From contig NC_092582.1 of the NCBI RefSeq assembly GCF_037975245.1, forward strand, positions 16,146,077 to 16,210,076: a stretch of 64,000 nt of DNA, in the 5' to 3' direction. A model generated the notes under the pieces. It was not told the DNA's origin. It saw only the letters and a list, made by a program, of their open reading frames with translations, and ran no database searches. Source of the DNA: Apostichopus japonicus (Eukaryota; Echinodermata; Holothuroidea; Aspidochirotida; Stichopodidae). Numbering within the stretch: the stretch's first letter is position 1; every line of letters begins with the position of its first letter. Below, one piece after another: positions 4,916 to 49,575 of this stretch. The position numbers and the translations under genes are program-made.

Positions 4916-7900
4916 ATGGCTCTGAAATATGCGGCCACAGCAGTTACTTGCTTCTTGATATCTTTTTTACTGTGCACAATACTTAGGTGCTGTGCTTTAG
5001 AATGGTCGGTAACCAGCATTATCATTGTATTCATCACAGGTAAGCAAGTCTTTCAATTTACTGTCTACTCAAATGGCAGATTCCTTCTATCAACACGCGA
5101 TGCATAATTGTCTAACAGTTTCTGCCGATTCACGCACACACCTTTGTATTCAAATGCACGGTAAATGCACGGGATTTTGTTCACTGCACTGTACACTGAT
5201 CACAGAACTACATGCAGTGTGTCCTCGAGTACTGTATATATACTGTATATATATCTTACACCTACGTGTATGGCAGGCCATTTTGGACAAAAACCAGTTA
5301 GTTTGCTTCAAGAAGTAGTTTTTAACATGCTATTTATCGCATGATCATTCAAAATCATAAGCAACTTATTCGAAAATGTGCGCAACCATGGGGTGCTATT
5401 TAAGCGTCGTGTTAAGATGATTTGGGGGATGGGGATGGGAGGGGGGGTGGGGGTGGGGAGGTCTTTGTATGGCCATGGTCTATGATCGTACTATCCAACT
5501 GTCCTAATGTATCTTTTGAAAAGACTGACAGTTATAGGTAGGCCTAATGCTGATGAACTTTACCTCACTTTTTAGTTACTAATTTCCATGCAATATAAAC
5601 TGTGGAAGTTTCAATTGTTACGAATATTTCTCTTTCTCCTTTCAGGACCTATGGTTTTGGTGAGTTTTCTTCTGGGCGTGATTTATCTCTTCATATCAAC
5701 TCGTCGTGTTTCCAAGTACCACACCCTCCTCTCAGCACTGGCATGCTTTATGTTACGATACTACTCACTTCACCTCGGAAGAAAGGCGATTGGTGACTTA
5801 CGTAGGAGCTGCTTGAATCCTCGGGGTGTTCAAGAAGATAGAATCCGGTTTATAATGAAGAAAAACCAAAATACAGATTACGGACGAAAGTTTAACTTGA
5901 AAGACATTAACAGCTTGAAAGATCTGCAGTCAAAACACCCGCTGACGCAATACGACCACTACAAGCAGTTCGTTCAGAGGGTAGCGAAGGGTGAGAAGAA
6001 CGTGATGACGGTTGAGCCGGTGACTCGATTGGTAGTGACGAGTGGCACCACTGGAGAGGGGAAACAAATCCCACAAGATGTATTTCAATTAAGTCATTAC
6101 TACGGTGTAACATCCCTGATTCAATCTGAGGGTTTCCCTGACGTCCAACCAATGCAAAAAGAGTTTAGGATCCATTGCAACTCAAAGATCAGGAGAAGCG
6201 AAGGTGGAATAATCGTATCATCGGCAGGAGCTATAAACGAAACCATGAAAAACTGGTTACTAGCTTACTCTACTCCACCAGATGGATTCTTAATTGAGGA
6301 CATCCAAGTTGCCTTTTATATACATTTCTTGTTCGCTCTTAGAGAGAGAGAACTTGGGTCAACCTTCGCTATTTTTACAAGTATCATGGTAGATGGGTTT
6401 AAGTACTTGGACCAACACTGGCCTGAAATGGTGGAGGATATTACCAACGGTACCATTAATGCGAAGGTGACTCTTCCTGCGTCCGTCAGGGAAGAATTAA
6501 CAAAGGCAATGGGCGAGGGTGACCCTGAGAGGGCACAGGAGGTCAGACGAGAATGTGAGAAAGGTCAACAGGGGATCATGCGAAGACTATGGCCTAATAT
6601 GAGGAGTGTAACTGCCATTGATAACATCCGAATGAGAGAAACATTAATGCAGACTATTGCTGAAGGTAAGTCGGAGCATTTACGTATTCGAATAGAATGT
6701 TGACCGCCTTGATTTGGTACAGTAGTACGGCAGTGGTATACTCTACACTATATGGCTACAGAGATTAACCAGGGAGTTGTTATGGAACAACTCCCTGGAT
6801 TAACTACAAACAAACTTTGTTCCAACAAGGTTACAATGCATACGGAAATGTTTGACGCATGCGCGCGACATGTTCTGATGCGCTGCTATTTTCAATACAG
6901 TATACTTTCGGTATCATCTAGTGATAGTTGTCTCTCTGTCCATTTATTGTCTCTTTATGAACCATTGTATCCTTTCTTTGCAGGTTTACAAGTTTATTCA
7001 ATGATGTATGGCTGTTCAGAGGCCGTCGTTGGGACAAATTTGAATCCCTTTAAAAAAGGAGACGAAGAATATGTTTTGAATATAACAGAGGCAGTTTTCG
7101 AGTTTATCAGCGAAGAGGACGTGTAAGTACATTGATCTTAAATTATCTGATTGCTGTCTATCTTAACAATTAATTGTACGACGTTATAGGATTGCTTCCC
7201 ACAAAAATGTCTTCGTTTCTCTTTGGCATTACTCGGCATATATTTGGTAATACCGTACTCTGTAAGCGCCAGTCCTTTTTTTCGCCCTAAATGGTGGTAT
7301 ACACACAGTTGGTGACTGCTTAAATAACAAAGTGACTTTTAAGGGTAGTGTTTTTGTAACAAGAATCGTCCCATATGAAATCAATCATGTCAAAATACAG
7401 ACAACTGCAGAGGTGATAGTTGCAACCCCCCCCCCCCCCCTCCACAAGGTTCTTAATAAGATATATTGATAAATGACATATTGATAAATCATATGAGGAT
7501 CGCGCCATATCAACATTGCATGCATGGTAAAGACCTTCTTCTATGTGTTTCTTTGTATGACTTATAGCAGTGTTGTTGTATAAATATTGGTACATCGTAT
7601 CGTGTCTGTCATTCTTAACAACATGTTGGTTTCGCCGGCATCGATCAGTAACCCTTAGACCCTGACGTTCTGATTCTTATCGATCCTTTGTCAAAGGTAT
7701 GAAGATAAACCAAAGACATATTTTGTGGATGAAATTGAAGTCGGTAAGAACTACGAAGTGGTTATCTCACAACTCTGGGGTTTCTACCGGTACAGATTTG
7801 GTGACGTCATACAGGTCACAGGATTTTACCAAAGTTGCCCTAAAGTCAAGTTTCTTTACAGGTAACAAAAACAACAACTTTATACCAATCTATGCTTATA

Positions 7901-10846
7901 TATTAACCAGGGCTAACGAGAGACGAGAAGGGTCATCAGGGGTGGGGGGGGGGTGGGAAACAGCCGCCAAAGAAGAAAACAAAAAACACATACTGCTACT
8001 GTCGATTTTATAACATACTGCAGGAAAATTGAATTCAAATATGGGGTCTGCATGGTAACATAATTATTCCCATGGCCTCACATGGCTCTAGACGGCACTG
8101 CTATCAACAACTTACTTGCGAGAAACAATGAGGATATTCTGCTGCACACGGTCATTCGGTACCGTCATGTCAATGAATATGACAAGAAAGGCAGGTGGGG
8201 GGGTGGGACGTGGGTGGAGGGAGTGGTCGTAAATGTAACTGAAATGTTAAGAAATGGAAGAGGACTGGATGGAGAAGAGTCATTGTTTCCTTAAGTTCCT
8301 TTAGTTTACCTCATTAATTGATTTTCTGCACCGGTTGTTATATTGTGTATTCGATGTCTGGGGTGGCAGTTAAACCATATGAATGAAATGTTTGCGAACA
8401 TTAACATTAATTATATGGAATTATTAATATTTTGAAGTATTGTAAATTGTGTGAACATGTATATAAGGAAATCTGGAAATAAATATATATTAGACACTAG
8501 TAACAGGATAAACAGGAGCCCATAGAGCCGGGCCGTGCCCCGTGGAAATTAGTGTACGCTATTCGTTATGTTATATTGATCGGGCAAGCTAATTGCCACG
8601 AGCCCGAGGACCGTACACCCGTCTGAACTCCTCCACTGGTCAGGCCTGGGGATGAAAGGTGCAAATAACTGTGAGGTGGGTTACAGGGTGTAAGGGCTAT
8701 AAGGTAAGGACAGGGGGAGTCATGGATTAGCTTATCTCAACTCCCTTGAAATTGACAGGGAAAAAAATCTCTTAGATTCCTGTCGGTAAATGTTCGCTTT
8801 AAGAACCATGACAACAAGAAACTTGTCTGACAGTTAATACCGCCATAGCCGAATTCATCGTTACGTAATGTACCGGTGCTCTAACCTCTCTCTCTCTATA
8901 CCTAACGCTTGCTTTATGAATAACCATTATACCACATACCAAACAAGAGATCGAGTTTTGTAGCGTTAAGAAATAATTACACTAAAATCATGATTTTTTT
9001 CACCATAGGACAGCAACTTTGTTGAATTTATTCGGTGAGAAGGTTAATCAAGTCGTTATCGCCGAATCTCTGGCTGCTGCCCTGGCAAACTGGCCAGAAG
9101 TGACGATGAAGCACTACTCTGTAGCTGAGAGCACGATGGTGTCAGCAGTTCAACCAAGCACAGATGGTAAAAGTATAATATTAGAGAGAAATATTCAAGC
9201 GTAGCCTGAAAGTATTAGCGAGAATGGGAGTGAGTCAGTGAGGTCTGTGATTAGAACTTCCATATGCCGACTTATTAAACATTCCGTTCCCATATTTAAT
9301 CGAGTTTGCAGTTAGCAACCAAAGGTGACACATATTATACCACACAGCACAAGAAAGGAGAATAAAAGCATACCAGTGTCATTCAATCAAACGCAGAAAA
9401 TGGCATGAGTGGGATTTCAAGAGAAGGTGTACCACTTTATATACAGTACCAGTAATTCATAAACATAAAACACTAGCTGAAGTGTTATATTTCAGTCATC
9501 TGTGTTTACGAACGAACGTAACACCTCGTTAGTCTTTACAAGGTCTCCAGCCGTCAAATGTTATACTTGAAATCAGAATAAGGGGTTTCTCTACTTCGAC
9601 GGTACAAAACCTAAGGGCCGCGAAGCAAACTTGGGTAGCGCATAAGTTATCGTTGGTCGCGGTAATTTTTCAATCCTCGAGGGGAGGTAGTCGGGGTGGG
9701 TCGTGACTTCTAGGCCGTGGGCCTAAAAGTTTGGGGATAACTGACTTCGGCTCACTTCATAAATCGGGTAGGGGAGAGTTGGAGAGATTCAGAGAGATAT
9801 TCCATAGGCCCCTCTGTATATATGTGCATTGGTCGACGTACTCATGCTACATCTTTGAAAAGGTCCAGTTCTATACCGTGTGGCCTTGTATCTCTTCCTA
9901 TAAATACAATTACTGCACGATATGTAAGAAACATCATCCTTGTTCTCCATCCCACAAAGCTGCATTCGTTTGATGTTTTGCCTTAGTGTTGACGTTGCAG
10001 GTCGACGTGATAACCTCTCTTTGCATAAGATATGATATAACATTCCCTCGTTATCCTTAACCACAATTAACTTTCTTTTTCCAGATAAGAGCAGAGGAGC
10101 CCACTACATATTCTTCCTGGAGTTGGAAGCGAACGAGAAGAGCCAGTCGGTGCAAAACGTTGATACAGATAAACTTGGCCAGGTATATACGCTTTTAAAA
10201 TGTCTTTTGATCGTTCACAATATAAGATCTACATCAGTCTCAAAAGTACACTAAGACCCAATGGCGTGGGCAGGTGGGCAGGTGGGCGGGAGGGGTGGAA
10301 ATGTTCCAAAAAACTTTGCGTTTAGGGCTTATTTTATAGACGTAATTTATAGGAAGTAATTATGCACCATTTGACGTCTAAATTTGTTACATTTGGGAGG
10401 ACCCCCCCCTCCCCGTAACTCCCCATACATAGGCGTCGGCTTCAGTGACCCACTGCAGCCCCCTCCTTTATAAAATCCATCATTCGCCTCTGGCCCTTCC
10501 ACAAAAGTTCCATTCCCCTACCTTAATCAGTGGCGGTAAATTTTTATTCGGCCCTTGAGCGTATTAAACTATTATTAGTATCATTATTCAGTGTAGACCT
10601 ATATGTTTATTTCTTCCTTCACAGCAAGTCGATGAAAACATTTACCAACGTCATGAGTTCTTCAGAACATTCAGGGACACCAAACAGATATCATCTTCCG
10701 ACGTGTACCTGGTGAAGCCAGGCGCGTTTGAAAAATTGAAGAGCTTTGTCCTGGCAACGTCCACGACTTCCGTGCTCCAATTCAAGATGCCTCTGAAACT
10801 GAGAACCAAAGAAATGACCAAACTGATGCTGGACAATTTACTATAG
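4916..10846 (+). CDS. GH3-domain protein, tandem copy 1 (seven exons, 641 aa)
   Basis: Exons: 4916-5039, 5646-6665, 6984-7122, 7697-7861, 9009-9166, 10085-10182 and 10625-10846, all with GT..AG introns and one continuous frame ending in TAG. The protein begins with two hydrophobic stretches (about residues 7-27 and 33-58) followed by STRR, so it is probably anchored in or inserted into the ER membrane. The GH3 fold follows: RKFNL..HPLTQYDHY, then the nucleotide-binding motif TSGTTGEGK (173-181), then YGCSE (390-394, the YxSSE motif of plant enzymes) and YRYRFGDVIQVTGFY (from 458). GH3 enzymes of plants adenylate a carboxylic acid and join it to an amino acid. The animal relative GHDC has no agreed substrate, so the substrate here is unknown. 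At 641 residues it is longer than mammalian GHDC as I recall it. Intron 2 holds a 13-bp hairpin (6769-6798). Intron 4 has G-rich tracts but no exon. Confidence 0.93.
6769..6798. repeat. perfect 13-bp inverted repeat with 4-base loop
   Basis: CCAGGGAGTTGTT, loop ATGG, then AACAACTCCCTGG, in intron 2 of GH3 gene 1. The flanks GATTAA and ATTAAC extend the symmetry loosely. It could be a relic of a small palindromic element. Confidence 0.7.
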
Positions 10847-11341: not shown

Positions 11342-11395
11342 GGAAAGCTCAAGAACAGGAAAATAACCAACTTGATGGTAGACAATTTGCTATAG
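11342..11395 (+). pseudogene. relic of a GH3 exon 7 (C-terminal end)
   Basis: Read in frame to the TAG at 11393-11395, it gives GKLKNRKITNLMVDNLL. The live genes end KLRTKEMTKLMLDNLL (gene 1) and KLRTKEMTVLMLDNLL (gene 2). The similarity stops at the left, where the rest of exon 7 is missing. It lies about 500 bp behind the complete exon 7 of gene 1. It is therefore a fragment of a dead copy or of a partial duplication. Confidence 0.75.
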
Positions 11396-13181: not shown

Positions 13182-13189
13182 GTCACCCC

Positions 13190-15303
13190 CAGGGACGTAG
13201 CCAGGGGGGGAGCGACCGCTCCCCCCTTTCAGTGTTGATTTTTTTTTTACAAACTGTCGTTTTTTAGCATGGTATTTTGTCAGTGCTCTTTTGATCTTGA
13301 ATACTCGTCAGCTCCGTTAACTCGATTGTAATCGTAGTAACATTCAGGCCTACTGATTCAGCTACTTACTTAGTTTGGCAGATGCAATTAGCTAAATTTA
13401 GCTTATAGCCAATTACAAGCCTACAGTTGGCCACTGCGTAATAAAATACATATATATTGCCTACCTAACCGCACTCTATGGAATGTCATGAACTGTACTG
13501 TAGGCACAACAACGTCGACAACGTTCGTTCTATGAGTCGTCCTAAGTTGTTGCACGAACAGCATGTTATGAAGATAAGCTAGCAATCGTACGTGATACGC
13601 ACTTCCTATAATAATTATTACACTGCTAATACACTGCGATAACGATATTTGTTTTTAGGCCACTGCATACAGGGGCGTAGCGAAGGGTTTTTTGTTGGGG
13701 GGTGTGGAGAATTTGATTTGCCGACGGATCTGGAAGTGGTGACTGAAATGGGGGAGGGGTCTAAGGGGAGGGGGTGTCCCCCTCCCCTTTGGCAATTTTT
13801 TAGATTTGAAACGTCCTTAGATGCAATCTGGTGCATATTTTAAGTCAAATTTGAATTGCCGACGGATCTGGAAGTGGTGACTGAAATGGGGGAGGGGTCT
13901 AAGGGGAGGGGGTGTCCCCCTCCCCTTTGGCAATTTTTTAGATTTGAAACGTCCTTAGATGCAATCTGGTGCATATTATAAGTCAAATTTGAATTGCCGA
14001 CGGATCTGGAAGTGGTGACTGAAATTGGGGAGGGGTCTAAGGGTAGGGGGTCTACCCCTCCCATTTTGGATTTTTTTTACTTTTGAAACGTCCTTAGATG
14101 CAATCTGGTGCATATTTTAAGTCAAATTTGGCACGGAAGAAGCTCCCGTTCTCCTTTTCTCTATTCAGCTTTCCTTCTTTCTTCCCCTTCCGCTCTCTTC
14201 ACCTTTTCTCCTTTTGCCGACAGACCCAAAATTTGCCGACAGCGACCAAATTATTGGGGGGGGGGTGTGACACCCCCCACACCCCCGCTCGCTACGCCCC
14301 TGACTGCATATCTGGCTATATTACAAAATATGAAAGTTTATATTGTCCATCAGTTAAAGTTCGTCAAATTTATTAAAGTCCAGACATTTGACAATAAACA
14401 AGAATCATCCTACTGGAAAAAATTGTAAAAGAGCACTATGTTTGTCTTTCGATATATTATGTAAAAGAACATGTAAAAGAATTCAAACAGGAGACAAAAT
14501 CTGTTGATAATGATATCATATGATCAGGGGCGTAGCCAGTATATATATGTAGCACTGTAGGCCCGGACCTACATTTTTTTGGCCAAGTTATCTTTTTATT
14601 AAAAACACCCATAATTCATAATTCTTGCTGGACGAGTTTAAGAGTCTATAGACAGGAAACACTATTGAAATGAACGTAGCAAGAATATGGCTAAATTAGG
14701 TGACCTATTCTTCTCATCTAGGCTGTCATTTCTATCGCGTGCCATTTCATTCAAAAGACTAGGATCCGATCTTGTCAGTTTTTTAACATGTAGTTAAGAA
14801 CCCGTTTACGCAGATAATACTTCAGTTGAGAAAACAGTTGAGAAATTTGCATCAGATGGCAATCGTCGGATAGCTCTCGCCTTCTCTTATTAGGCTAACT
14901 TAAACATTTACTAGCTACAGTTGTATCAAAGACATTTCTGGCCTATCTTTGTATCTACAAGTATCAGAAGTTGAAAAGTAAGACTACTCTGTACATGTAC
15001 CTTGCTAATTTTAATACATTATGTAGTATTGAATTACGTACTATTTTAACTCGTTTGTTTTTTGGGTTTAAAAGTGGTATTGAATGAGGTGTCTCAAGTT
15101 AGCAAGAGGCCAGGGAACTAGAATGAACACTCGGGAAGGGCCGTTTCCGGCCATCTGGGGGGTTTGTAAAACCAAAGATTTTCTTGTACGCTCCGCGCCA
15201 ACCGATGGTGGCGCTCCGCTCAGATAGTCGTGCCTACAATTTTGAGAATCCATATCAATCGCAAAAAGTGCTCCCCCCTTTCAAATTCCTGGCTACGTCG
15301 CTG
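13190..15303 (+). mobile_element. hAT-like non-autonomous transposon, copy A (2114 bp)
   Basis: Its termini are CAGGGACGTAGCCAGG at the left and CCTGGCTACGTCGCTG at the right. Perfect 8-bp duplications GTCACCCC flank it at 13182-13189 and 15304-15311. The interior matches the element at 59899-62118 in inverted orientation over most of its length. It carries a nested insertion at 13670-14302 that the other copy lacks. A further internal part (about 14525-14790) resembles the family at 60690-60950. The ~105-bp shared module lies near the right end (about 15130-15235). There is no transposase frame. Confidence 0.9.
13670..14302 (+). mobile_element. hAT-like MITE with three 138-bp tandem units, nested in copy A
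   Basis: Termini CAGGGGCGTAGCGA and TCGCTACGCCCCTG, with perfect 8-bp duplications ACTGCATA at 13662-13669 and 14303-14310. The paralogous transposon at 59899-62118 shows the uninterrupted site, with a single ACTGCATA (in reverse, near 61640). That is direct evidence for insertion. Internally GCCGACGGATCTGG recurs at 13720, 13858 and 13996, a 138-bp period, followed by a partial fourth unit. Confidence 0.92.
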
Positions 15304-15311
15304 GTCACCCC

Positions 15312-18215
15312 ACCCTCATCTCCTTCCACATCCTTTCCCTACGAACCATTCATCCGTCTCATTAAAATGTGACACTGAGTGCATTCGCTCCTCCATGCAT
15401 ACCAAAAAAAAAAAAAACGTAAGATGCGATAATAATAACAGCAGATAAAGTAGAAATGCAGACACAGCAGATATCCTTGAGAATAAAACTAGCAGCATGG
15501 AGGATTCAAATATGACAAAACTAGGATTTTCTGCTGGCAAACTTTACGCCTTGTCGAATGAATCTCTCTAATTTCTCAGCTACACTATCTAGATTTTGCT
15601 GTTTGTAACCGACACGCACTTCAATATATAGCGTATTATGACAAAAACATGATTAAAATACATAAATTTTCCATGGAATTTGTATTTCCGTCTACGAATA
15701 GTTCCGTTTGGATATGAAACGTTCCGTTGCTATGGTCAAACCACGAAATTACAGAAAGTTCATCCGGCATATTTATAGTAAAAGGTTGCCTACCTATATG
15801 CGCTTCGCTCATTAACAAAGTCTAAACTAGCAAAACGTTATCAAATGGACAGCCTATACATTGACTTTTAAGGCATACACAAACATTTCTTCATTTTAAT
15901 AAATAATAGCCATGCCTGTAGATGGCACATAGAAGTTGTTCATTTATGACGCTATCAGCATCTCGTGCAATGTGTGCAAAGTACAAGAAGTAACCGACGC
16001 TTTTGTTGGCGCAATCTCGACATAACTGTTTTTACTATTTTAACTAGCCCTCAGACAGTTGACGAAAGTTATCTTTTGGCACTTTCCATGACGTACAATG
16101 ACTCACGTCGAGGATGAAAACATGAATTCCAAAGCAATTTCGTGCCCGATTTCTTTCTCTCGATTTTTCGTGCCCAGGTTCTCTCCATGGTGACTTTTCT
16201 TGAAAAGATTATAGATATACGCCCACGTACGGATGATTTCTGTACGTACAACAATCGTACAGTTATTTCGCAATTCGGAACGCGACGCGCCTCTGATCTT
16301 TTGCTGTGAGCGTTCTTGTATCACTGTATCTCAAGCTTGAAACTTTGCTCAGTACTGTCATGAGCAGAAATTGGGGACGACCCTTTCAATTGTGACATTA
16401 TATCTGCCACAGTGTTATTTCTTTGGGCCTACATCATTTTCTCCCAAACTGATCTTATCTGGCTCCTCTATATAACTGCACTTTTCCATCAACTACCTGG
16501 CTTTAGATATTACTGACATTTTAACACTGCGATAACTTGACTCACTACCACTTTCACTTCCTTCCGAATACCATCAGCCTGGTAGACTGAAAACCGTTGC
16601 AATAGTAGAGAGGAGACAGGTAAGCACAGTAAATACCCATTCTGTACTTGCATATTTTGCGACACGTGATTTCCATACGATTATATAAAAATATAGTATA
16701 TAACAATATTTTTATACGAAAAATAATAAAACCAAAATAAACATATAAAAAAAGTTGGAATTATAGAGTAAGTCTAAGAAAACAGTTTGTAGTTAAAAAC
16801 GAAACCAATGCAGAAAATAGACGAAGAAAAACAAAAAAGTCAGGTATTTAAAGAAAATGGGATAATTACATCAACCAATCCCCCAAAAAAAGGGGGGGAG
16901 GGCGGTGGGCGGGGAATTTCTATGAAGTTGCCGATCTCATCCCGAAATTTGCGTATATGGGCAAAATTTCAAACAATGCATTCAATATCGTACTTCTTCA
17001 TGATACAGCCCTTTCAGCTATTATATCGTTCGGCATTTACATAGAAGCCAAAAGTACAGGTTATCTTTTCAAATAAATTGACATTTCTAGCAATTTTATA
17101 AAGCCATCAGATTTATCTACAGGAATATCAATGACTTGACCTTTAACCGAGTAACCTTTCGCATTTTATATTAATTAAGGGCTATGAATTGGCTATTTGA
17201 CTCTGAACCTGTGGCGTGATTAGTCAAACAGGAACATATTATATGAGCAATGGGTTGTTTGCGAAACGCTTTTTCGCACATACTTGACCGAGCTTGACCT
17301 TAGAGCTCCTTTCATCGCGTGGCCTTTGGTGTTTAACATTAATTAATGTTCTGTAGACATACAGCTCGTGATAACCTACTTGTGTTTGAAGTATTGCGCC
17401 ATGTTGTCATTTAGGTGTAAGTGTAATGGTCACAATACTGTTTTGGGGTAATCAACCTGTGATCTTTGACCTATGGCGTCATTAGTCACGTAGGTGCAAG
17501 GTTTGGCAAAGTGACCGTTTTGTAATTGTTTTCTAGTCATTTGTTATCATACGGTGAAATATATTGGGAAACGTTAACACGTGATCACCATTCGAGTTTG
17601 ACAACTCTGTTGATTGAGCTCAGGAATTTTTTTCCAGACAATTTCTTAAAAAACTTAATTAATATCATTAGTTTTCTCACAGATTTGTTATATGACACCA
17701 TCAAAATAGTAATTTACTCAGACTAACTAATTTAGTGTTAACTAACTTAATGGTAAGGTTAGCCAGATTTTGGGGGAAATTGTGTGGCTTGACACTGTAA
17801 CTTCCACATGGTTACGTTGCCAGATTGGTATTTTTATGCAATTAAAATAGATAATTAACTCCATTAATGATGAGACGCTCTTTGAATAAAAGTAAACAAA
17901 AAGTCAACCAAAGGACTTATAATTATGTAACTGATTGTTTCAAGATTATTTATTACAGAAACTTTACATTAGTATCCGTATGTATTCGTTTTAAATAAGA
18001 AAAGAAAATTAACATATTATGGGTCGCACATAGGTAAATTCAGAATAACACAAGGTAATCAATTTCAGTCACTTTTAAAGTCTGTCAGGAAGTAAACAAT
18101 TTACGTTAAGACAAAAACAGAAACAACAACAATTAAGCAGAATAAGCCATAAAAAAACGAGGAAATTGTTGGAGCGAATGTGTTAATAATGTATTCCAAT
18201 TCTAGTTTGAAGACA
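15312..18215. other. intergenic, no gene recognised
   Basis: The stretch holds an A-run (15400-15416) and AT-rich sequence. About 45 bp at 16162-16207 (TTTTTCGTGCCCAGGTTCTC ...) recur at 45250-45295, so a dispersed repeat is present. Similar phrases around CCTGTGGCGTGATTAGTCA (17210) and CCTATGGCGTCATTAGTCA (17470) hint at an old local duplication. No open frame shows a family motif. Confidence 0.4.
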
Positions 18216-18223
18216 TTTGAGAG

Positions 18224-25800: not shown

Positions 25801-25856
25801 CAAAGAAACTCAGGACTAAGGAAATGACCGTGCTAATGCTGGACAATTTGCTTTAA
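19810..25856 (+). CDS. GH3-domain protein, tandem copy 2 (seven exons, 642 aa)
   Basis: Exons: 19810-19936, 21209-22228, 22941-23079, 23884-24048, 24475-24632, 24987-25084 and 25635-25856 (stop TAA). From exon 2 on, every exon has exactly the length of its counterpart in gene 1; exon 1 is one codon longer. It has the same layout: two N-terminal hydrophobic segments, TSGTTGLGKQIPQ, YGSSEALIG, YRYRFGDVIQVTGFY, and the C-terminal KLRTKEMTVLMLDNLL. All motif residues expected of a working GH3 enzyme are present, so I expect it to be functional. It is probably a recent duplicate of gene 1, since the two are close in sequence. The substrate is unknown. An AATAAA lies only at about 26497, 640 bases behind the stop. 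An open frame that runs 31 residues past the exon-2 donor is intron read-through, not coding. Confidence 0.93.
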
Positions 25857-30090: not shown

Positions 30091-31491
30091 AATTTCTGTC
30101 AGAGAGAGCCACTGGCTATCCGCTAGCTAATATCCAGTGTTCTGGCGACCTGCTAGCCCAAATCTGGTATTCGGCCAGCAACCCACTAGGCAGAGATCTT
30201 CACATGAATTGCTAACCAAATATCTGTGTTCCGGCAGGAAACTGTCCGTCAAATATCTGGTTTTGTCCCAGCACATTGTCAAGGGAAAGCCAGAAAGAGT
30301 GCCAACTCGTTTGTGGTGTACTACTAGAACAGAGCTATTGGTCTACCTGCAGATTTTACTGAATTACACATGCGGTTACATATGAAGAAATAATGACTAA
30401 CACAGTGAAATTAGTTGCTACCTTTTTATTACGCCTATAAATTACAAAGCGAGAAAATGAGTTCCAGCGTTAAATATTCCAACAGCACTAAAGAAATTCA
30501 CTCGTCAACTGTTTGTGGTGTAGTCCGAGATTATCGCCCTCCCTCACAACCAGATGCACCCTTCAGAAATCTCACCACCGCCGCCTGAATATCAGATGAA
30601 GTCTATTGTGCAGTTCCTCCGTACAGCTTCTGTTAATACGAAACACATTACACAAAACATTACATAAAAGATTGCATTCTACACAAGCAATAAAATGAAG
30701 CCAATAATTGGTTCCCGATACTCATAGCTTGAACAGTTACTACTGTTCATGTTCCACAACCGTGCATCAGTTACTACTGTACTGTGCTCGTAACACAGTA
30801 ACATGTGTTACACGTGGCACGTGGCAAGTTTTTTCTATTTGCAAATTTAAAAAAATAATAATACTTTTAAATTTTAAAATTTAAAACATTAAAAAAATTA
30901 AATTTAAAATTTTTTAAAATTACTGCAAATTTTCACCTGTCTGACTCTTAGTTCAACGTGTCACAGCTTTCTGATAATTACTGTGCCAACTGTAACACTA
31001 GCTATGAGTATCGGCTGGGGTCCCATATTATGATCACAATTGGTTAAACTACATTATTCACATTTTCACACATTTACCATTTTTTCCGTGATATACGAAA
31101 TATTTCCTTTGCCTTTGACAGTCACCTTCTTTCATTTTATACTGAACACATGCATTACTGTTGCAAATCCAGGTCCCATCAATTGGGAAATTGGATGATA
31201 GAAAGTGACAATGAACTGGTCAATAAAGTCATATGGAGAATAAACTTTAAAATCAATGCTGAATGCTGCTTTACAACTGCATCTGAAACAACACATCTTA
31301 CATCAACATATATTTGTAGTAAATTTTTTAAATGACCAGAATTCAATATAAATTAAAGCAAGAATTCTCGTTGATGGGATGTTGCATTGAAAAGTTGGCC
31401 GATCCATGAGTCAAATGCACAACCCCCTCCCCACAACTCAAGATTCTCTTCACTGCTGCTGAAAACAAAAATGACACATATAAACTCACTT
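30091..31491. other. element interior, AT-rich, no exon recognised
   Basis: Includes a very AT-rich low-complexity run (30835-30925). A possible extra C-terminal exon of the DUF4806-like gene could start at about 31460 on the minus strand, behind TTTTGTTTTCAG, but its phase does not decide between models. Confidence 0.35.
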
Positions 31492-38549: not shown

Positions 38550-41500
38550 ATGGCGAATAAATTACTAGGAGCTGGCATGATGTGTTTTGTCTTCACTGCA
38601 GTGATCGGTAGATTATTGCTTCTTGGTGGTCCTGTTTGGTCTTTACAATGGGTCGTTGGCTCTATCCTGGTCGGTAAGTCATGTCATACAATTAAACTAA
38701 GTGTAACTTTCATAAACCCAAGTATTATTAATATTTTTCTTGGTCCTGCGAGGTATTTACAAAGGGTTATTGTCTCTCCTGATCTGTAAGTCTAGGGCAC
38801 TCGACTGAGTTAGCCTTAGTAAAAGCTACTGACAAGATTACCAAAGCAAGTGACACGACTTTACTTAAACTGCCCTAGCTGGTGGTGTTTTCTTGGATTT
38901 ATCAGAAACGTTTGATGCAATAGACCATGGTATCCTACTGTACAAGCTAGCCAACTACTAGCATGAGATTTCTCACTAGCTTGGGTTAAGAGTTACTTAG
39001 GTCTGACTCATCGGAAGCAATAAGTTTCATTAAAAAATGGTAAATCCATATATCTTCCGCAAGGTTCCATTCTTGGCCTTCTCCTGTTTATAATTTATAT
39101 GAATGACAAAAATTCTGATCCATGTATGCTATTCTTATTCTGTTTACCGACGACACATACATCCTTTTCTCAAATATTGACTTGTCAACACTCGAACAAT
39201 ATTCACTGCAGCGAGTTGTTGGCATTCTCAAAACAGCTTTGCAGCTGTAACTAAGTTATATGTCTGAATACTGCTACACTATATAATAAACAATCTATAT
39301 TGATTTACGGGAAAATGCAATTTCATTTGGTTGCCACCATTTTCCAAGTAGAATATATGTTAAAAATGTCTTTCTTTCACTCATAATATACATTCCCACA
39401 ACACCAGGTCCTCCCAACACTTATTTTCTCTTCCCATTAATTCTAACCTTTTCAAACGCTCAATTGTATCTGATGTTACTAAGTTCTGGAATCCAATCTG
39501 TGATTCAATAAAAAACGCAAAAACCGTAAAGTTATATTCTTATAGGTTAAAAAAGACACTTATATCTAAATATGAACACTTCTAGTGCACCCCTATGTAT
39601 TTTCATCTCTATTTTTGTTTGTTTCTATTAGACATCTTTCTATTTCATTCCAACTGACTGCTCCATTACTTTTCTTTTATGCAAGAAGAACCTTCTTCTA
39701 TACAAGTTAAGCTTTTCCACTGTCACTAATCTCAGACTTACAAGCTCACTATAATTCTGCTACTGAAGGTACTGAACAGGGATTTCCCCGAAATTGTTAT
39801 CCACTATAGGGCCAGGAAAGGTTATATCAATGGCATTGAAAGTATAGAGAACCGTTTAACAGACAAAGGTCAATGATTATGACCTTTTGCATTCACACTG
39901 GCGCCTTTCTCCAGGATTTGGAGCGATATTCAGCACACTTCACAAAATATCAATCTATATATAGTGATTCCATTTACTGTGTATAGCACTGATACAGTTT
40001 TAAGGGTTTGAACTATACAGCAGTGGTTAACCATGTAAACGAAAGAATTCCATGACCATGATGTGTGGTGTATAGAGTCAGTGGCAATTATACTGTAAAA
40101 GTCACTTAAATCAAGGTGATATCTTGCTACTCTATCTTAAAGTACGACAAAACAGTTGTCCAGCTGTTAACCAGCTGCTCTGTACTATAGATCATGTCAT
40201 CAGTTCAGGGGGTAGGCAGCTTCCAAAAAGCGGGGGGGGGGGCAGAACATCAGAGGGGCACTTTTTCATTCCACAACAAGCACTCGTTATACTATAAACC
40301 GATACACACCGGTCATATCACTTAAATGCATATGATGTGTTAATGTGCTATCAATACTATTTATTGAGATTGTTTATTGTTAACCGTGCTACAAAAAAAT
40401 ATGGGATGCCATTTTAAAAACAGCATGTAGAGACTAAAAATAAATAATTCAAATAAAATATTAAAATTAACAGAGGTTTAAGATTTCCAAAAGACAGTTC
40501 TTCGTCAAAGGGGCACATTTTATTTGCCAGTAGGGTACATTTGCTATTTTGGAAAAAAGTGTGGGGGGTGGGTCACGTTCCCCCAGTGCTCCCCCCCGGC
40601 TCCTACCCCCTGCTTCAGTTCCAAGCTGATATCTATATGTAAGATTTGCAGGAATTTGCCAAACAAAGAGCTGCAACACACTTTGAGGGCGCTATTCACA
40701 ATAGTCCTTCATCATAAGTAAATCGAAATAAATACCACTATTCCTTTGTTTTTTGTAGTACGGAGACTTCAAATGATCATAACTTCTTTTTTTTTTTAAA
40801 CAAAACAGATAGGTAGTAGTATGACAGAACTACTGAAATTAGGAAATTGGAAGATTTGGGGCGCAAATATCGCCTCATTTTTTTTACCATTTTCATGCCA
40901 TTTCAAAAAACTATTATTTTAATTTAAATAAAATATCTCAGACAAACAAAGGACGCCCTGAAAATAGCGCTAAGATTCATGTCGAATGATGATCATGTTT
41001 GACCATTCTATGGCATCAGTTACCCGTGCAGATCAGGTGTACGTTTTCCTTTTGAAATTAATTAACACTAATCGTTTTTGAAATCACATAACTTTGCGAT
41101 TTATTACATGGGCTGATTGAGAAAGTCAAACTGCGATTTACTCTGAATGTTGTGTTAGATTTTAGGCTACCTATTGTGATAACAGTGGCGGAGAAACAGG
41201 GGGGTTGGGGGGGTTTTAACCCCCCCACTTTTTGAAGAGGGGGGTTGGCCCACACAATCAACCCCCCCTAGTTTTTGCCAGTAATGTTCTGTTATAGCCT
41301 ATGTTATGTGTTCCAAATGGCATAATAAATCAAATTATTAAATTTGAAATTGTTAGAGTCATTTCAACCTTTTACCTGGTAGGCTACATCAACAATTAAC
41401 GACAGTAAACCGAGTTAGAATTGACCCACACATTATTTCTAGCCCCTTTCCCCCACCTTGCGCATTGGAACTTGTAGCTCATAGCGCTAACTTCACCCCA

Positions 41501-44500
41501 CAACAGACATACACAAAATAACGTTTTGCTGTTGAATAGCTTTGGAACTGTATACACTTGCCAACTTCAACGAGGTGAAGGAAGGAAAAGAAAAAGAAGA
41601 AAGAGAGAAAAGGATGGAGTAGAAAATACGGCAAGAAAACGGGAAGAGAAAGAGGAACAGTGACAAAATTATTCGAATTTGTAAAGCAAACAGCAGATAT
41701 CACATCATATCAGTGAGCATGAAAATGGCGTTCCACGATAAACAGCCTCCAAACCATGGGCGCAGATCCTGGTGAGGACAGCGGGACGCGTCCCCACCAA
41801 CTTTTTCAGTAGTGGTGACATGATATACCGTATCCCCACCAATTTTTCTTGACCAATAGCTGCATTTCAAGTTCCCCTGTATTGAACTTTGGCGCAGTTT
41901 GATCCAGCATTATGCAAATGACATGCAGCAGTTCTCATTTTATTGTATTTTATCCAGTTGTTAAATATAGGACGGAAATCGCATTTGGATTATTTGTCCC
42001 TGATTTGTTTTCTGCAGACGCCCAAGTATTAACCCAAACTAAATTTCCAAGCCATGAAATCTAAAAGTTAAGGAGGTTTGGGAGCATTATTAGGTCTGGG
42101 AAGTGTTATTTCCGGCGATCTGGGAGGTATATTTCCCAAAAAAAATCGTACGCTACGCGCGAACCCATGGTCGCGCTCCGCTTAGATAGTGTCATAGAAC
42201 AGACACGCGTCCCCACCATTATCCAAGACTGATCTGCGCCCATGCTCAAAAACTGTCGATGTGTGTAGTGTTCGGTTTCGGAAATATCTGGTATATTTTT
42301 ATTTCCTTCAAAGAAATTTTTTAGTAGCCGTCTGAATTTTCGAAAATTCCCTAACCAACATTCTTCATCATACTTCATCATACTCGTGCAATTTTGACCC
42401 GTCTGTTAGGGTTTGAAGGAGGTTTTTCTATATCGGTTGTCCATAGATGATATTTTGTGCAACATTATGGGTATGTTTTGAAGTGAATTTATTCACGAGA
42501 ATTGTGAGTTTTCAAATTCTGAACAGTGAGGCTGACGGATATTGTGGGCCGCGATGAAGAATCACCTACAAAAGCAATGATCCACAGGATATGTGATGAA
42601 GTCGAGCATGATGTGTGACTGGTGACAATCTTCAAAAAGGTTATAGATGAGAGAAAAAGTATTTGGAAAAAACTTGGTTCTCAGGCAAAATTGTACATAT
42701 GGTTGGTCAGTTTCAAGCCCGAGAAGTGCCATTTCCGGTGATCTGGGGGTACCAAAACCAGAAATTTGCTTGTACGCTGCGCGCCAACCAATGGTGGCGC
42801 TCCGCTTAGATAGTAATACGCGCCCCCGGGTTAGAAAATCCTGCATACGCCCCTGGTTAAATGCAGCTTTTCAAGGCTTGGGCAATGCCATTTACTGCAA
42901 TCTGGGAGGCAATATTTGCCAAAAATTTCTTGTGCACTTCGCGCCAACTTATGGTGGCGCTCCACTTAGATAGTGAGCCAGCAGTTATGACTTTTTATTT
43001 CATCAATGGCCTGCAACCCCCCCACTTCTGACAAGAAATCTCCGCCACTGTGTGATAACCCTGTTGACGTTTATAGACGGAGAATCCCGTTACTGTATAG
43101 CAATGAAAGGTAAAAAACATGTTTCTTTATTTCTTTTACAGGAACTATAATGTTCATTTTATGTACATTAGGGGTCGTCCTTCTCTTCATTGCATCTCAA
43201 AGAGTTTCCCAGAATTCCTCGATACTCTCGGCATTACTGCATTTCGCATTTGCTTATTACGCATTATATTCTGGTAAGAAGAGGTTGGTTAAACTACGAT
43301 CATCGACGCGCGATCCGAGGCGAGCCCAGCAAAACAGACTGACAGCGATACTGACGAAAAATAAATATACAGCTTATGCAATCGAGCATAAACTTGATGA
43401 AATCAAAAGCTTAAAAGAATTTCAATCGAAACATCCACTAACGCATTATGATCGATACGAGACATTTGTAGAAAAACTTGCTAAGGGAGGCACGAACGAT
43501 ATGACGGCTGAGAGGACGACGAGGTTAGTTGCAACGAGCGGTACTACAGGAGAGGGTAAATTAATCCCTAAAAATACGATGGAGTACTTAAATGACTTCT
43601 CTGTAATGACTGCAATCTTCACAGAATCCTTTCCGAACTACCGACCTATGCAGAAAACATTTCGACTGCATTGCAATGCCGAACAAAGCAGAACCAAGGG
43701 CGGTCGTCTTAGCATAGCTTCAGGAATGGTGATAGAAAAAAGGATGTTGCCATACATGGTATCCTTTTCAACACCTGCGCATGGGTTTCTGATCGAAACA
43801 ATTCACGATGCGTTCTACGTCCACTTTCTATTTGCTTTAAAAGAGCGAGAAGTTGGAATGACATTGGCTCCGTTTATTAGCATGATCGTTGAAGGATTTA
43901 AATATCTAAATCAACACTGGCCAAAAATGGTGACAGACATACAGAATGGCACAATTAACGACTCAGTCAAACTACCATCGGAAATCAGAGAGAATCTCGT
44001 ACGGTTAATTGGCAATGGAGATTCACAGAGGGCAGAAGAGGTCCGACAAGAGTGTGAGAAGGGTCAACAGGGGATCATGAAGAGGCTTTGGCCAAACATG
44101 ACACATGTGACAGCTATTGATAATCTTGGTATAAGGAACCAATTAATGGAGACGATAGGAAAAGGTAAAATGATTTATTCGTATTTTTATAAGTCGATCA
44201 ATGACGTCAGCAGCACATGCACAAAGCAAATCTTAGTTGAGATGAACGGAATATATCAGTTATTACAGTGACGATGGCTTATATTTCTTCTCTCATGGGA
44301 ATCATGGGACATGGTATTTAAATCGTGGAGTTGCGGTTAGAAAATGGAGCGGTATTGTGTTAGAGGTGGAGATAAAAAACAGAACTGATCTCTTGAGGCT
44401 ATGTGAGTAGCCATCTTATGATCTTCTTGTTTCCACCAATTAATATTATAGAATCTAAAAAGGCTCCCCTCTCTGGATTTAACAATGGCAACCCAACATA

Positions 44501-47500
44501 AATACAACAACGAATTGGAGACATTTTGCCAATACCATTGGGGGAAAAGAACAAATAGGAAGGAAGCTTCTACTTTTTGAACTGGTAAATAGTTAATTAC
44601 AAGATAGAACAAATAAATGCAACTTACTTATGAAAGTTAAGTCTTAGGACACACCTTCTCACGTGCGGGTAGCCACGGCAGCTCTACACTAAATTCAACT
44701 AAATCATTTGTCCTGACGCCCTAGTAGTAAAACTGTTACAGTAGTTACAAAGGAACAGCAGTGTGGGTGGGATGCGGGTGAATGGAAATGAATTGAGATG
44801 TATTATTGATTTGAAGTGTTAGTCAAATTAGGTGAGCATGAGATGAAGGTAATTAGCATGCCTTAACTATATTCCAGTAGTATTAGTTAAATGAGGTGAG
44901 CATCTGATGAGGGTAATTAGCATGCCTTAGCTATATTGAAGGAGTGGAATGTGACGGAATGATTTAGTGAATGACTGGAGATGAATGAATGGGTTACTAA
45001 CAATACAAATAGAAGTTGTCTTACTAGGGACTCTATCGGAGTCTGCTACGCCTAAATGCTGCATCATAGCTCCTATATCCACGTTTCAACTAGTATTGCC
45101 AGACGTCACAACATTTTGGCTAAGATCATGTGTAGTATCTGTTCCCTTTCGAGGGGAATGGGGATGCACACCGGACGATGATCACACAGTCACAGTCCCG
45201 ATGCAAGGGGACTGGGGTTGAGAGCGGATCAGTCGTTCGGTAGTTTGGTTTTCGTGCCCAGGTTCTTTCCTGGGCGACTTTTTCTTAAAAAGTACTTTGA
45301 AAACTAGTGCCGTTAGATGCTGCAGTCAGTACCATACCAGAAAAATTTGGATAAAGTTTCCCTTTTCAAAACTTTTTCCATCCTCTAAGGAGTAAGCACA
45401 AATTCGATTACTTATAGTTTAGAAACTACAAGACTTGCTCATAGTATTTGCTAAAGACTAACCAAAACTCACAAAGCTATATAACATATTGTAATGTAGA
45501 TTTAACGTTCAATCGGTTTAACCTGAAAGAAGGAAGAAAGTTTAGAGGTTGTGGGTATTAATTAATCGCATCGCTTACAAGGTATTGTTTTATACCTTGT
45601 CGTTGTCTACGGATTATGATTTGTTGTTCACCGTCCCAAAACAATACTACCACTACAGTTTGTATATTCTATAACGGTGTTAATTTGTGAGTAATGACCC
45701 CGTTAACAATGAAAGTGGCTAGACGACTTAGTCTAACAAACGGACCGTACCGCACGATCCTCAATGGGAAAATATAATAATTTTATGGCCTTAAATGTAT
45801 TACAATACATGACAAATTTACCAATGAAAAAAATATCGTTGAATGTCATCCAAGGAGGCTCCGTTCTTTACATGAACTTTGGTTATTACACGAACTTAAA
45901 AGAACATGTTTTGATTCAGTTATTTACATTTCTTTCACAACAATGGATTAACGTTTAGGCCTGCACTGAGGAACCGAAGCCTTAAAGAAGCTTCACATAG
46001 CATATTCCAAAGGTAAATATTTTGGAAACATTACTAAACAATACTACATATTTTTTTTTGGGGGGGGGGATTTTAACACAACAAAAGTATATTTTTGCCT
46101 AAAGTCATCCTATACCAGTGCTATATCTTCATAATTATGTCACACTTCAAAGTGAAAGCACAGTACATCAAAATATCATACTTTGTCTTTGGCAGGAATA
46201 CCATTTTACTCACCAATGTATACGAGCGCAGAGGGTACCATGGCTTATAATGTAGACCCGTTGCAAGAGGGAAACGAAGAATATTTACCGACAATAGATC
46301 ATATCGTCTACGAGTTCATCCCCGAAGATGAAATGTGAGTGTATTCATGTTTATCTCATCGATTCAGTAGTAAGAAAGGCTTAGGATTTCATGGAAAACT
46401 CAATACACTCGTCCTATTGAGTCTCCACGAAAACCAGTGGCGTTCACAGGATTTCGATGTAGATCAAATTCTTAACTTCTAGACTGATTTGTATAGGAAT
46501 GTGACTCTTATGGAAAGACCAGAGACGAGTAAAGGATGGATTATGTCATCGGGATAATCGCTGGAACCGTCTCCCGTGGATGGGTGTCTTCTCCCAGAAA
46601 AAGAAAGAAAGTTAGACGTCAAATTTTGCAGTTTGAGGCATATTGAGAACTATACAATTAGATCTAGCTAATTGGTTCTAAATTCATTGTTGCCCTAATA
46701 AATACTCTACGACTTAGATCGTGTCCAATCCTCCCACCCAACCGCTCCCCATCCTCCGCGACCATGCGAACGCCACTGACAAAATCCGGCCTCCATCCCC
46801 CTCAGTTGCAAGAAATGGTACAACAGAGTTTCCATTTTCAATCTTATATTCTGATCATTCACTATCTGGAATGAAACTTTCGTGCTGACAATAATGACCT
46901 ATATATTATGCAAGGATGTTACAAAATCCAATGAAAAGTCTGTTTTTTTTCTCCATCTGAAGATCTCTTCTAATGTCTTTATGATTCTCTTTAAAGCGAC
47001 GCTTCTAACCCAAAGACCTACTTTGTCGATGAGATACAAGTCGGCAGAAAGTACGAGGTGGTCATCACACAAATATCGGGTCTCTACAGGTACAGGCTCG
47101 GTGACGTCATCCAGGTGACAGGATTCTACAATAACTGTCCGAAAATTAAATTTCACCACAGGTGGGTGAATACGATGTATATGTTATATACAGGTTGTTA
47201 CTTCCCATTCCAACCCCACCTTCCCACCCAACCCAAACCATCCTAATTAGTAGCCAGACTCAAGTTCCCAATACGCCCCATGCCCGGACACACACGCATG
47301 CACAATTATAGTACACGTTACGGTACTGCTTCAATCTGCAGAATCGCAACCAATACATAATGTAGTGGTTGCCAATACTAACTAACAATCCCCTCTCGCT
47401 CCCCCTCCCCCACCCCAAAGCAAACCCTCTTAATATGACAAAATGCAACAATCTTTCTTTTTTCCTACAGAACAGGAGCCATGCTGAGTATATTTGGTGA

Positions 47501-49575
47501 AAAAGTTGACCAAGTTACCATCGCGGATTCACTGAATAGCGCCCTCACTCTTTGGCCAAAGATAGAAATAGCATTCTACTGCACAGCTGAAAGTACTCTG
47601 GTATCCAAATTACCAAACATTGGTAAGATATTAAATGGGTGTTTGGAGATGGAGAAATAACGCTCTCTCCAGATTTAATGCCGTATCAATACATGCTCGA
47701 GAGTTTGTAAATTCAATCAATAAATCAATCAATCAGAAACATTTATATAGCCCTAATAACAACAAAAGTTGTTCAAAGATTCTATGAAACATTTACATCA
47801 CATTAGCTATTGTACGCCTGTTCAAACAGATAATGTTTTAGCAGTTTCTTGAAAATATGAATAGTCTGAGCGTTTTTGATACGGTTTGGAAGATTGTTTC
47901 AATCTTTGGGACCGAAACAAGGAAAAGAACGATCAGCAAGAAGAAAATGAATCCTATTCATGTACAAGGTGCACATGTGATTGGCAGGACTGTTCATGTA
48001 GGTGTTTAGCAATAGAAATCTTCTGAGGACGTGGTTATTCCTTTCAAAAGCTATACGAGGACACACATACACACACCGGTGTGTTTTTCATTCAGACTGA
48101 GGACCCCATTGTATTTTTCAAATCCACTTACCCTTACCCCAACAATACCCCTTAAACAATATCATTCTTCTGGGGACGTGGTAATTCTTTTCAAATGATT
48201 TCTGATGACTTGGGATTCCTTTGTTCAAATCCTCAGTTATAATACAAAACAAGTGCATCCACACTCAGTCACACACACACACAACAACAACAACAACAAT
48301 AACAATAACAAACACTTAACTTTCTTTCAATAGATGCAGAAAAGTCATAACATGTAATATTTTTGACATAATCAATTTTTGCAAATGCAATATCTCTCAT
48401 TGGATTAACTCTCATTTTATAAACAAGTGAACAAAAAACCCTAAGTTACCTGTGTACATTCTTCACATCGATCTTTACATACAGAGATAGACAGTCCAGC
48501 TCGCTACATCTTTTTCATGGAGATGAAGACTGACGTCACTTACGGAACAATCGATTCTAATAAGTTGGCTAAGGTAATTTTTTTTATATTTTATATCAAT
48601 GGAGCAGTAACTACACGAAATAAGAATATACTACCATTTTTAACCACCGTGTTTGATGGCCAGTTCCTGCCTATAGTCTTGGTGGTTAGGAACACTTGTT
48701 GCCGCGTGATGAAGTCATACATGCCAAATAAACACGGTTTTACCATTACTTCTATATATATCGTCTCACGGTGGGATCTCAAAATCACACATGCAAACAC
48801 TATTAACCCGTACCTCGGTAAAGAAAAAAACGGGTAAAGAAGTTTAAATGGACTTGTGGATATTATTTCATATAATGAGTTGAAGTATGACTCGTGAATC
48901 CTATTTTACGAGGAGCAAACTAAAGACAACTTCTTAGATTGTTAAAAACAATTTTTAGTATTTATAATTCTTTTTTATAAATAAAAAATCTCCAGCATAT
49001 GGGCATCACATATTGAATGAAAAGTTTAATACATTTTGGATCTATAAGCGAACTCCATTTTATCCAAGTTTCTCAGAGGAGGATGGTCCCTTCTCAGAGG
49101 GAAGGGACCACCTTCCTCTGAGATTCCTTCCCCTGGACAGCATGACATCTTAGCCCCTCCTCAAATACCAACATGGTTAGTTGCGCCATGGTGGTCATCA
49201 TGGCTACAACTCATCCCAGTTCTCTGCGTTATGGTTACGAGAACCCTATTACAAATCATTTTCGCCATTTGCCCCGATACTATACTATACACCCCCACTG
49301 AAGTTTTAACCATTTTGAAATGTTTCCTTCTTTATATGATTCTTTGTACACAGGAAATTGACGAGAACATTCGCAGTCGTCATAATCACTATCGAAGGTA
49401 TAAACAAACCAAACAGATAGCAACGTGTATTGTATACTTGGTCGAGGTTGGAACTTTTGAAAAGTTGAAAGCATTTATTCTGAATAATACTACGGCTTCT
49501 GTGGTGCAATTTAAGATGCCCCAAAAGCTCCGAACGGCGGAAATGGTCCAAATCATGTTGGAAAACGTATTGTAA
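38550..49575 (+). CDS. GH3-domain protein, tandem copy 3, divergent (seven exons, 637 aa)
   Basis: Exons: 38550-38673, 43142-44164, 46196-46334, 46997-47161, 47471-47622, 48485-48573 and 49354-49575 (stop TAA). Intron phases are the same as in genes 1 and 2. Exon 2 is one codon longer, and exons 5 and 6 are two and three codons shorter. I chose the ATG at 38550 because it gives the same 124-base exon 1 as gene 1 and a hydrophobic N-terminus. TSGTTGEGKLIPK and YRYRLGDVIQVTGFY are intact. The YxSSE motif reads YTSAE (gene 1 YGCSE, gene 2 YGSSE), keeping the Glu, and FLYR before intron 4 reads FHHR. It is likely still an enzyme of the same type but may differ in substrate. Intron 1 (4.5 kb) is filled by a LINE relic and nested transposons, one ending 92 bases before exon 2. 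Confidence 0.92.
38755..39595 (+). mobile_element. decayed non-LTR retrotransposon (LINE) reverse transcriptase
   Basis: Translated fragments in order are GVFLDLSETFDAIDHGILL (about 38888), LPQGSILGLLLFIIYMND (about 39054), LFTDDTYILFS (the FADD box altered to FTDD), and a C-terminal part, HNTRSSQHLFSLPIN followed by FWNPICDSIKN (about 39400-39510). These match the order seen in CR1/Jockey-type LINEs. Stops and frameshifts show it is dead. It lies in the same orientation as GH3 gene 3, in its first intron. Confidence 0.8.
40206..40612. mobile_element. hAT-like MITE (407 bp) in intron 1 of GH3 gene 3
   Basis: Termini CAGGGGGTAGGCAGC and GGCTCCTACCCCCTG, with near-perfect duplications CATCAGTT (40198-40205) and CTTCAGTT (40613-40620), seven of eight bases matching. 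A complementary G/C tract lies inside each end. There is no coding capacity. Confidence 0.78.
41183..43050. mobile_element. hAT-like composite element (1868 bp) in intron 1 of GH3 gene 3
   Basis: Termini CAGTGGCGGAG and CTCCGCCACTG, with perfect 8-bp duplications TGTGATAA at 41175-41182 and 43051-43058. Inside, an AACCCCCCCACTTTTTG tract at the left pairs with CAACCCCCCCACTTCTG at the right. It contains the nested element 41755-42244 and two more copies of the ~105-bp shared module (42713-42815 and 42875-42975). CTGCATACGCCCCTG near 42843 looks like the end of another nested element whose start I could not find. Its right border is 92 bases from GH3 exon 2. Confidence 0.88.
41755..42244. mobile_element. 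hAT-like MITE nested in the 41183-43050 element
   Basis: Termini CATGGGCGCAGATC and GATCTGCGCCCATG. The flanking octamers CTCCAAAC and CTCAAAAA match at six of eight positions, so the duplication is imperfect. GCGTCCCCACCA occurs inside both ends. The ~105-bp shared module lies near the right end (42095-42192). Confidence 0.8.
44820..44940 (+). repeat. ~60-bp tandem duplication in intron 2 of GH3 gene 3
   Basis: TAGTCAAATTAGGTGAGCAT and TAGTTAAATGAGGTGAGCAT start two units that both continue through GGTAATTAGCATGCCTTA. Confidence 0.75.
47720..48060. repeat. dispersed repeat in intron 5 of GH3 gene 3
   Basis: It starts with a (CAAT)n-like stretch and ACATTTATATAGC, then CTTGAAAATATGAATAG and GGGACCGAAACAAGG, an arrangement common in invertebrate short repeats. 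A following block (48060-48210: GGTGTGTTTTTCATTCAGAC, CTTCTGGGGACGTGGT) resembles 57610-57745, so at least that part is dispersed. Family not identified. Confidence 0.4.

Follow-up and report, generated by a model that had tools for sequence, protein, structure and literature searches.

A window of 64,000 nucleotides on contig C22 of an echinoderm genome carries three GH3 genes in tandem (G1, G2 and G3), all on the forward strand, whose products, as judged from their sequences, are probably membrane-anchored, ATP-dependent acyl acid-amino acid ligases. The family is known, and the genes place it in an animal branch for which we found no functional study. Our search of the open-access literature, in which subscription papers are mostly missing and which is thus weak evidence of absence, returned nothing on the function or activity of any animal GH3 protein. 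A multi-copy animal GH3 set, in which the three genes of the window are intact and keep their active-site motifs, makes animal GH3 function directly testable with purified protein.

We rebuilt the gene models from the raw sequence, and G1 was found to span 4916-10846, G2 19810-25856 and G3 38550-49575. Each gene has seven exons, all 18 introns follow the GT-AG rule, and the phases after exons 1-6 are 1, 1, 2, 2, 1 and 0 in all three genes alike. The encoded proteins have 641 (G1), 642 (G2) and 637 (G3) residues, with no internal stops. These models uphold the initial annotation, which had proposed a tandem array of three GH3 genes of seven exons with the same phases; its bounds, 4916 and 49575, are the start of G1 and the end of G3. 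The exon lengths are 124, 1020, 139, 165, 158, 98 and 222 bases in G1 and 127, 1020, 139, 165, 158, 98 and 222 in G2, so that the equality claimed for these two genes from exon 2 on (1020, 139, 165, 158, 98, 222) is exact. G3 (124, 1023, 139, 165, 152, 89 and 222 bases) departs from them in exons 2, 5 and 6. The features, with the evidence for each, are as follows.

4916-5039, forward strand: G1 exon 1 (124 bp), start codon and first hydrophobic segment; model and spliced alignment.
5646-6665, forward strand: G1 exon 2 (1020 bp), remaining hydrophobic N-terminus and GH3 N-domain; model, spliced alignment and Pfam.
6038-6064, forward strand: G1 nucleotide motif I, TSGTTGEGK, residues 173-181; motif comparison.
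6984-7122, forward strand: G1 exon 3 (139 bp); model and spliced alignment.
7007-7021, forward strand: G1 nucleotide motif II, YGCSE, residues 390-394; motif comparison.
7697-7861, forward strand: G1 exon 4 (165 bp); model and spliced alignment.
7779-7805, forward strand: G1 nucleotide motif III, GFYRYRFGD, residues 456-464; motif comparison.
9009-9166, forward strand: G1 exon 5 (158 bp), which holds K494; model and spliced alignment.
10085-10182, forward strand: G1 exon 6 (98 bp); model and spliced alignment.
10625-10846, forward strand: G1 exon 7 (222 bp, stop included), which holds K622; model and spliced alignment.
19810-19936, forward strand: G2 exon 1 (127 bp); model.
21209-22228, forward strand: G2 exon 2 (1020 bp); model.
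22941-23079, forward strand: G2 exon 3 (139 bp); model.
23884-24048, forward strand: G2 exon 4 (165 bp); model.
24475-24632, forward strand: G2 exon 5 (158 bp); model.
24987-25084, forward strand: G2 exon 6 (98 bp); model.
25635-25856, forward strand: G2 exon 7 (222 bp, stop included); model.
38550-38673, forward strand: G3 exon 1 (124 bp); model and spliced alignment.
43142-44164, forward strand: G3 exon 2 (1023 bp); model and spliced alignment.
46196-46334, forward strand: G3 exon 3 (139 bp); model and spliced alignment.
46997-47161, forward strand: G3 exon 4 (165 bp); model and spliced alignment.
47471-47622, forward strand: G3 exon 5 (152 bp); model and spliced alignment.
48485-48573, forward strand: G3 exon 6 (89 bp, or 83 bp from 48491); model and spliced alignment.
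49354-49575, forward strand: G3 exon 7 (222 bp, stop included); model and spliced alignment.

The spliced alignment, made with a self-written aligner and a paralogue as the query, was applied to G1 and G3 and recovered the exons of both. The sole mismatch was six bases at the acceptor of G3 exon 6, which is ambiguous: it lies at 48485 in the hand model (89 bases) and at 48491 in the spliced alignment (83 bases). The start codons of all three genes have A at -3 and G at +4, and upstream of each there is an in-frame stop with no ATG between. Comparison of the G1 and G2 regions by blastn gave seven blocks, each of which overlaps a single exon and extends no more than 66 bases into an intron. Since the blocks track the exons, and G1 matches plant GH3s with E values down to 1.6e-52, the array is not a product of chance.

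By their domains and matches, G1-G3 are assigned as full-length GH3 proteins. The Pfam domains GH3, GH3_M and GH3_C scored 204.4, 73.4 and 43.6 bits in G1 and 197, 86.7 and 47.1 bits in G3 (cut-off 23.6 for each); in G2, for which only the N-terminal GH3 domain (PF03321) was scored, it reached 204.8 bits. At E <= 0.1, G1 matched ten PDB sequences, all of them plant GH3s (best 1.6e-52, residues 88-628), and a profile built from six family members found the same ten at E <= 0.001, with a best value of 2.1e-86. The membership in the GH3 family originally assigned to these genes is thus confirmed. We modelled the part of G1 encoded by exon 2, which includes motif I and excludes motifs II and III and the C-terminal domain, from a 27-sequence alignment (pLDDT 84.8, pTM 0.82). 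According to VIA-align, the best PDB matches of this model were GH3.5, GH3.12 and GH3.6 (Z 22-23); against 5kod it gave a Z of 23.2 and an rmsd of 3.1 over 290 residues, and the first non-GH3 ligase, of the PaaK type, followed with a Z of 7.7. Foldseek at E <= 0.001 matched the model to 30 PDB chains, all of plant GH3 proteins. The echinoderm proteins thus share with the plant enzymes (VvGH3-1, AtGH3.5, JAR1, GH3.12) homology over G1 residues 88-628, the N-domain fold, the three nucleotide motifs and the C-terminal lysines. They differ in having a hydrophobic stretch (approximately residues 1-63 of G1) before the homology starts, and over the modelled part G1 is 21-26% identical to the plant structures.

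The nucleotide motifs of JAR1 are given as S100SGTSQGRPK109, Y330GSSE334 and G397LYRYRLGD405 in PMC12493201. Motifs I, II and III read TSGTTGEGK, YGCSE and GFYRYRFGD in G1, TSGTTGLGK, YGSSE and GLYRYRFGD in G2, and TSGTTGEGK, YTSAE and GLYRYRLGD in G3. The equivalents of G1 E394, R459, R461 and D464 are invariant among the 10 echinoderm, 3 plant and 73 bacterial sequences compared, and those of K494 and K622 are each lysine in all ten echinoderm, all three plant and 72 of the 73 bacterial proteins. We take these two C-terminal lysines to match plant GH3 lysines with a catalytic role. The motif I serine, S174 of G1, is serine in 9/10 echinoderm, 3/3 plant and 71/73 bacterial sequences, and it aligns with S115 of the bacterial GH3-like enzyme OlsH, whose replacement by alanine is described as abolishing activity (PMC12493201). 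The motifs noted in the initial annotation are present and intact: motifs I-III and both C-terminal lysines are kept in G1-G3.

This conservation bears on the possibility that the proteins are pseudoenzymes or binding proteins, which keep the GH3 fold and form no amide in the animal. We consider this unlikely, as G1-G3 retain every motif residue examined along with both lysines, and purifying selection has acted between G1 and G2 (below), even though the literature search gave no report of animal GH3 activity and motifs do get lost within the family. The altered motifs lie only outside the window: the protein encoded on contig C15 carries R in place of the motif I serine (TRGTTG), that on C5 carries D in place of the motif III glycine (RYRLDD) and LICTE as motif II, and motif II on C7 is FNGSE. 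These three paralogues are candidates for altered or lost activity on the evidence of their sequences. The vertebrate GH3 protein is not known to have all of the motifs, so not every animal GH3 protein need be an enzyme.

Plant GH3 enzymes control hormone activity. Their reaction is described as the formation of an acyl-AMP, a turn of the C-terminal domain and attack by the amino acid (PMC11253546). If G1-G3 are acyl acid-amino acid ligases, homology with the plant enzymes suggests that ATP-Mg and the acid would bind the open form, that the acyl-AMP would form on the enzyme, that the C-terminal domain would then turn, and that the amino acid would attack the acyl-AMP to give an amide and AMP. 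Alternatively, as in other adenylate-forming ligases, the acid may be adenylated and its acyl group handed to CoA, taurine, a polyamine, a sugar amine or a protein in place of an amino acid. The N-domain fold does resemble CoA ligases such as PaaK, but weakly (Z 7.7 versus 23); the GH3 C-terminal domain is present, and the Foldseek matches were, to the last of the 30 chains, plant GH3s. Transfer to such an acceptor, therefore, seems improbable, and amide formation with an amino acid is the reading we prefer. The initial annotation, which saw an undescribed conjugation chemistry in the family, put the chemistry too strongly.

In the N-termini of G1-G3, two hydrophobic segments precede arginines and lysines. 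The best 19-residue Kyte-Doolittle means in this region are 2.62 for G1, 3.08 for G2 and 2.78 for G3, scored with exon 1. Among the bacterial relatives, 47 of the 73 proteins could be scored (those with a recognised motif I and a usable stretch before it), and none of them exceeded 1.6, the maximum being 1.52. The other seven loci of the genome were scored without exon 1: two on C22 (C22a and C22b) and those on C18 and C5 exceeded 1.6, and those on C15, C7 and C14 did not; the sample consisted of echinoderm and bacterial proteins. The hydrophobic stretch, thus, may anchor G1-G3 to a membrane, most likely as a hairpin with the catalytic part on the cytosolic side, as suggested by the basic residues after the second hydrophobic segment. 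Of the membrane anchor proposed in the initial annotation, the strongly hydrophobic N-terminus stands for all three proteins; the anchoring itself is a reading of hydropathy.

Since identity to the plant structures and the bacterial relatives is about 20-39%, the substrate cannot be carried over from them, and any given substrate is considerably less certain than the ligase activity. The membrane anchor would favour a hydrophobic acid, fatty or otherwise lipid-derived, and the products might then be N-acyl amino acids, which is speculative. The nearest lipid precedent for the echinoderm proteins is OlsH, a bacterial GH3-like N-acyl ornithine synthase reported to join fatty acids to ornithine with ATP and Mg (PMC12493201); one bacterium at least thus owes an amino lipid to a GH3 enzyme. 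OlsH is of the GH3 family and, by the motifs printed in that report, has the motif I TSGTT, as do G1-G3; it differs in being predicted as soluble, with 526 residues, and in its diverged motif III. We suggest tentatively, as a rather doubtful extension, that the echinoderms have evolved a family of amide ligases which are anchored in membranes, work independently of CoA and produce N-acyl amino acids, or conjugates like them, as signals or defence lipids; on N-acyl amino acids in echinoderms, the open-access literature gave nothing relevant. Such a family would be an animal counterpart to plant hormone conjugation, diversified via tandem duplication.

To find further copies we searched the genome (671.6 Mb in 35 contigs) with the PF03321 profile, which gave at least ten exon-2 loci on six contigs, locus counts being lower bounds and withheld stretches of the genome reading as N. 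Five of the ten are on C22, two at 9.56-9.58 Mb and three in the window, and there is one each on C5, C7, C14, C15 and C18. The expanded family that had been supposed from the array alone, thus, exists, with seven of the loci found outside the window. Exon 4 has 165 bases in all ten loci and exon 3 has 139 bases in six and 136 in four. The phases after exons 2, 3 and 4 are 1, 2 and 2 in 10/10 loci, and the phase after exon 5 is 1 in nine, the exception being the C5 model, which is fragmented past exon 4 (phases 2, 1 and 0 over three pieces). Exon 6 of the C14 model is split in two, and exon 2 probably starts short in the C15 and C7 models. We considered the exon plan as a special trait of the array and rejected this, because the phases of exons 2-4 are common to all ten loci; the plan is inherited, family-wide and older than the array. 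Local duplication inside the ten-locus family is the best explanation for the origin of the array.

The second cluster on C22 consists of two GH3 genes, C22a (C22:9556000-9565999) and C22b (C22:9573500-9583499). They are 96% identical over the aligned core, with a dN/dS of 0.56 from 40 changes, and are a recent duplicate pair, perhaps under relaxed constraint. A protein search added other exons and, near the C15 gene, a GH3 remnant (C15:11088000-11097999) that matches exons 5 and 7, holds a stray bit of exon 4 and lacks exon 2; a further exon-7-like match lies at C15:10974081. In the window with its exons masked, a tblastn search for extra GH3 fragments with the ten proteins gave a sole match, on the opposite strand, with an E value of 0.72. 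About 500 bases beyond the G1 stop, 17 codons on the forward strand (11345-11395) resemble the end of exon 7 (E 0.78); this stretch, which is absent from the masked-window matches at E <= 1, is a possible relic of another GH3 copy.

G1 and G2 are 73% identical and diverged under purifying selection (dN 0.155, dS 0.838, dN/dS 0.19); against either of them G3 shows 50% identity, and the silent sites are saturated. The jasmonate contacts of JAR1 are reported to lie after motif I (PMC12493201). When G1 and G2 are compared, residues 185-215, a region picked after inspection by eye, fall in the top 6 of 599 windows along the proteins for amino acid change. We nevertheless rejected positive selection on the acid pocket, as dS in this region is 1.99 and dN/dS approximately 0.20, the level of the whole protein; the high dS alongside the high dN leaves no sign of selection for new substrates. 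The lowest identity of G1 and G2 in 25-residue windows is at residues 78-103, rather than in the stretch after motif I.

These values also bear on a special case of the acyl acid-amino acid ligase reading, in which the enzymes would prepare dietary algal or plant acids (phenolic acids, auxins, jasmonates) for excretion by joining them to amino acids. The tandem copies, the expansion of the family and the recent pair C22a/C22b would fit such a repertoire for detoxification, but amino acid change after motif I is not in excess of silent change, and we hold this special case to be unlikely. That the array results from misassembly or consists of pseudogenes is most improbable, as copies 50-73% identical are not alleles, and the genes have open frames, GT-AG introns and, for G1 and G2, a dN/dS of 0.19.

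The initial annotation had set GH3 enzymes as best known from plants against their presence in an animal. The host is an animal, as its mitochondrial code and gene order (below) are those of an echinoderm; the contrast is too narrow, since GH3-like proteins are found across bacteria and a vertebrate GH3 domain is listed in Pfam (PF25146). GH3-like proteins have been described in bacteria (PMC12493201). In our own search they were widespread there, with 125 relatives found, of which 80 were kept; seven outside 500-640 residues were excluded from the tree, leaving 73. The PF25146 protein is presumably GHDC, and the comparison with vertebrates was made with the Pfam model. All ten echinoderm loci match this N-terminal model at E <= 0.06, but G1 (28.3 bits) and G3 (26.6 bits) are below its cut-off of 34.1 bits, which is exceeded only by C14 (42.8 bits) and marginally by G2 (33.0 bits, or 34.8 with its neighbours in frame).

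The ten echinoderm proteins form one group (SH-aLRT 99) in an 86-protein tree that also holds 3 plant and 73 bacterial members, and within this group the five C22 copies cluster with a support of 93, which is not decisive. Before alignment and tree building we dropped the exon-1 predictions of C18, C15, C7, C14 and C5, exon 1 of C22a and C22b, and the tiny artefact exons of the latter two; one alignment took six of the ten family proteins and another 24 of the 80 bacterial proteins. Long branches, including C14 with C5, drew a warning from the tree tool. As to the deep origin of the echinoderm GH3s, two cyanobacterial GH3 proteins adjoin the echinoderm group in this quick tree (support 90), whereas a tree joining echinoderm and plant sequences scores slightly better and is not rejected (p-AU 0.577). 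Recent gene transfer from bacteria is disfavoured, since the top-scoring blastp match of each bacterial protein to the ten echinoderm proteins is at most 39% identical (80/80) and all ten gene models have introns.

Elsewhere in the window, a single open frame on the reverse strand (51767-52768) encodes 334 residues with a Sulfotransfer_2 domain (25.8 bits, cut-off 22). At E <= 0.01, Pfam gave no match for ten further selected open reading frames of the window, and Rfam at its gathering thresholds gave none for the window. A tandem repeat with a unit of 446 bases (2.6 copies, 93% matches) lies at 36464-37607. Other repeats are a 138-base array (13710-14130) and a perfect run of TA (50303-50373). 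The mitochondrial genome is contig C35 (16,099 bases), the COX1 of which reads canonically when AAA is taken as Asn, AGR as Ser and ATA as Ile, the echinoderm code; three other codes do not give a canonical reading. The order of its genes is COX1, ND4L, COX2, ATP6, COX3, ND3, ND4, ND5, ND6 (reverse strand) and CYTB, with ND1 and ND2 on the forward strand. The genes were identified from their reading frames, and we take the order to be of the echinoid and holothuroid type and not of the starfish type; the host is thus an echinoderm and probably a sea urchin or a sea cucumber. Further pieces of COX1 were found on C29, at 14745-16086 and 30842-31219, and reflect either a copy in the nuclear genome or the mis-assembly of a mitochondrial contig.
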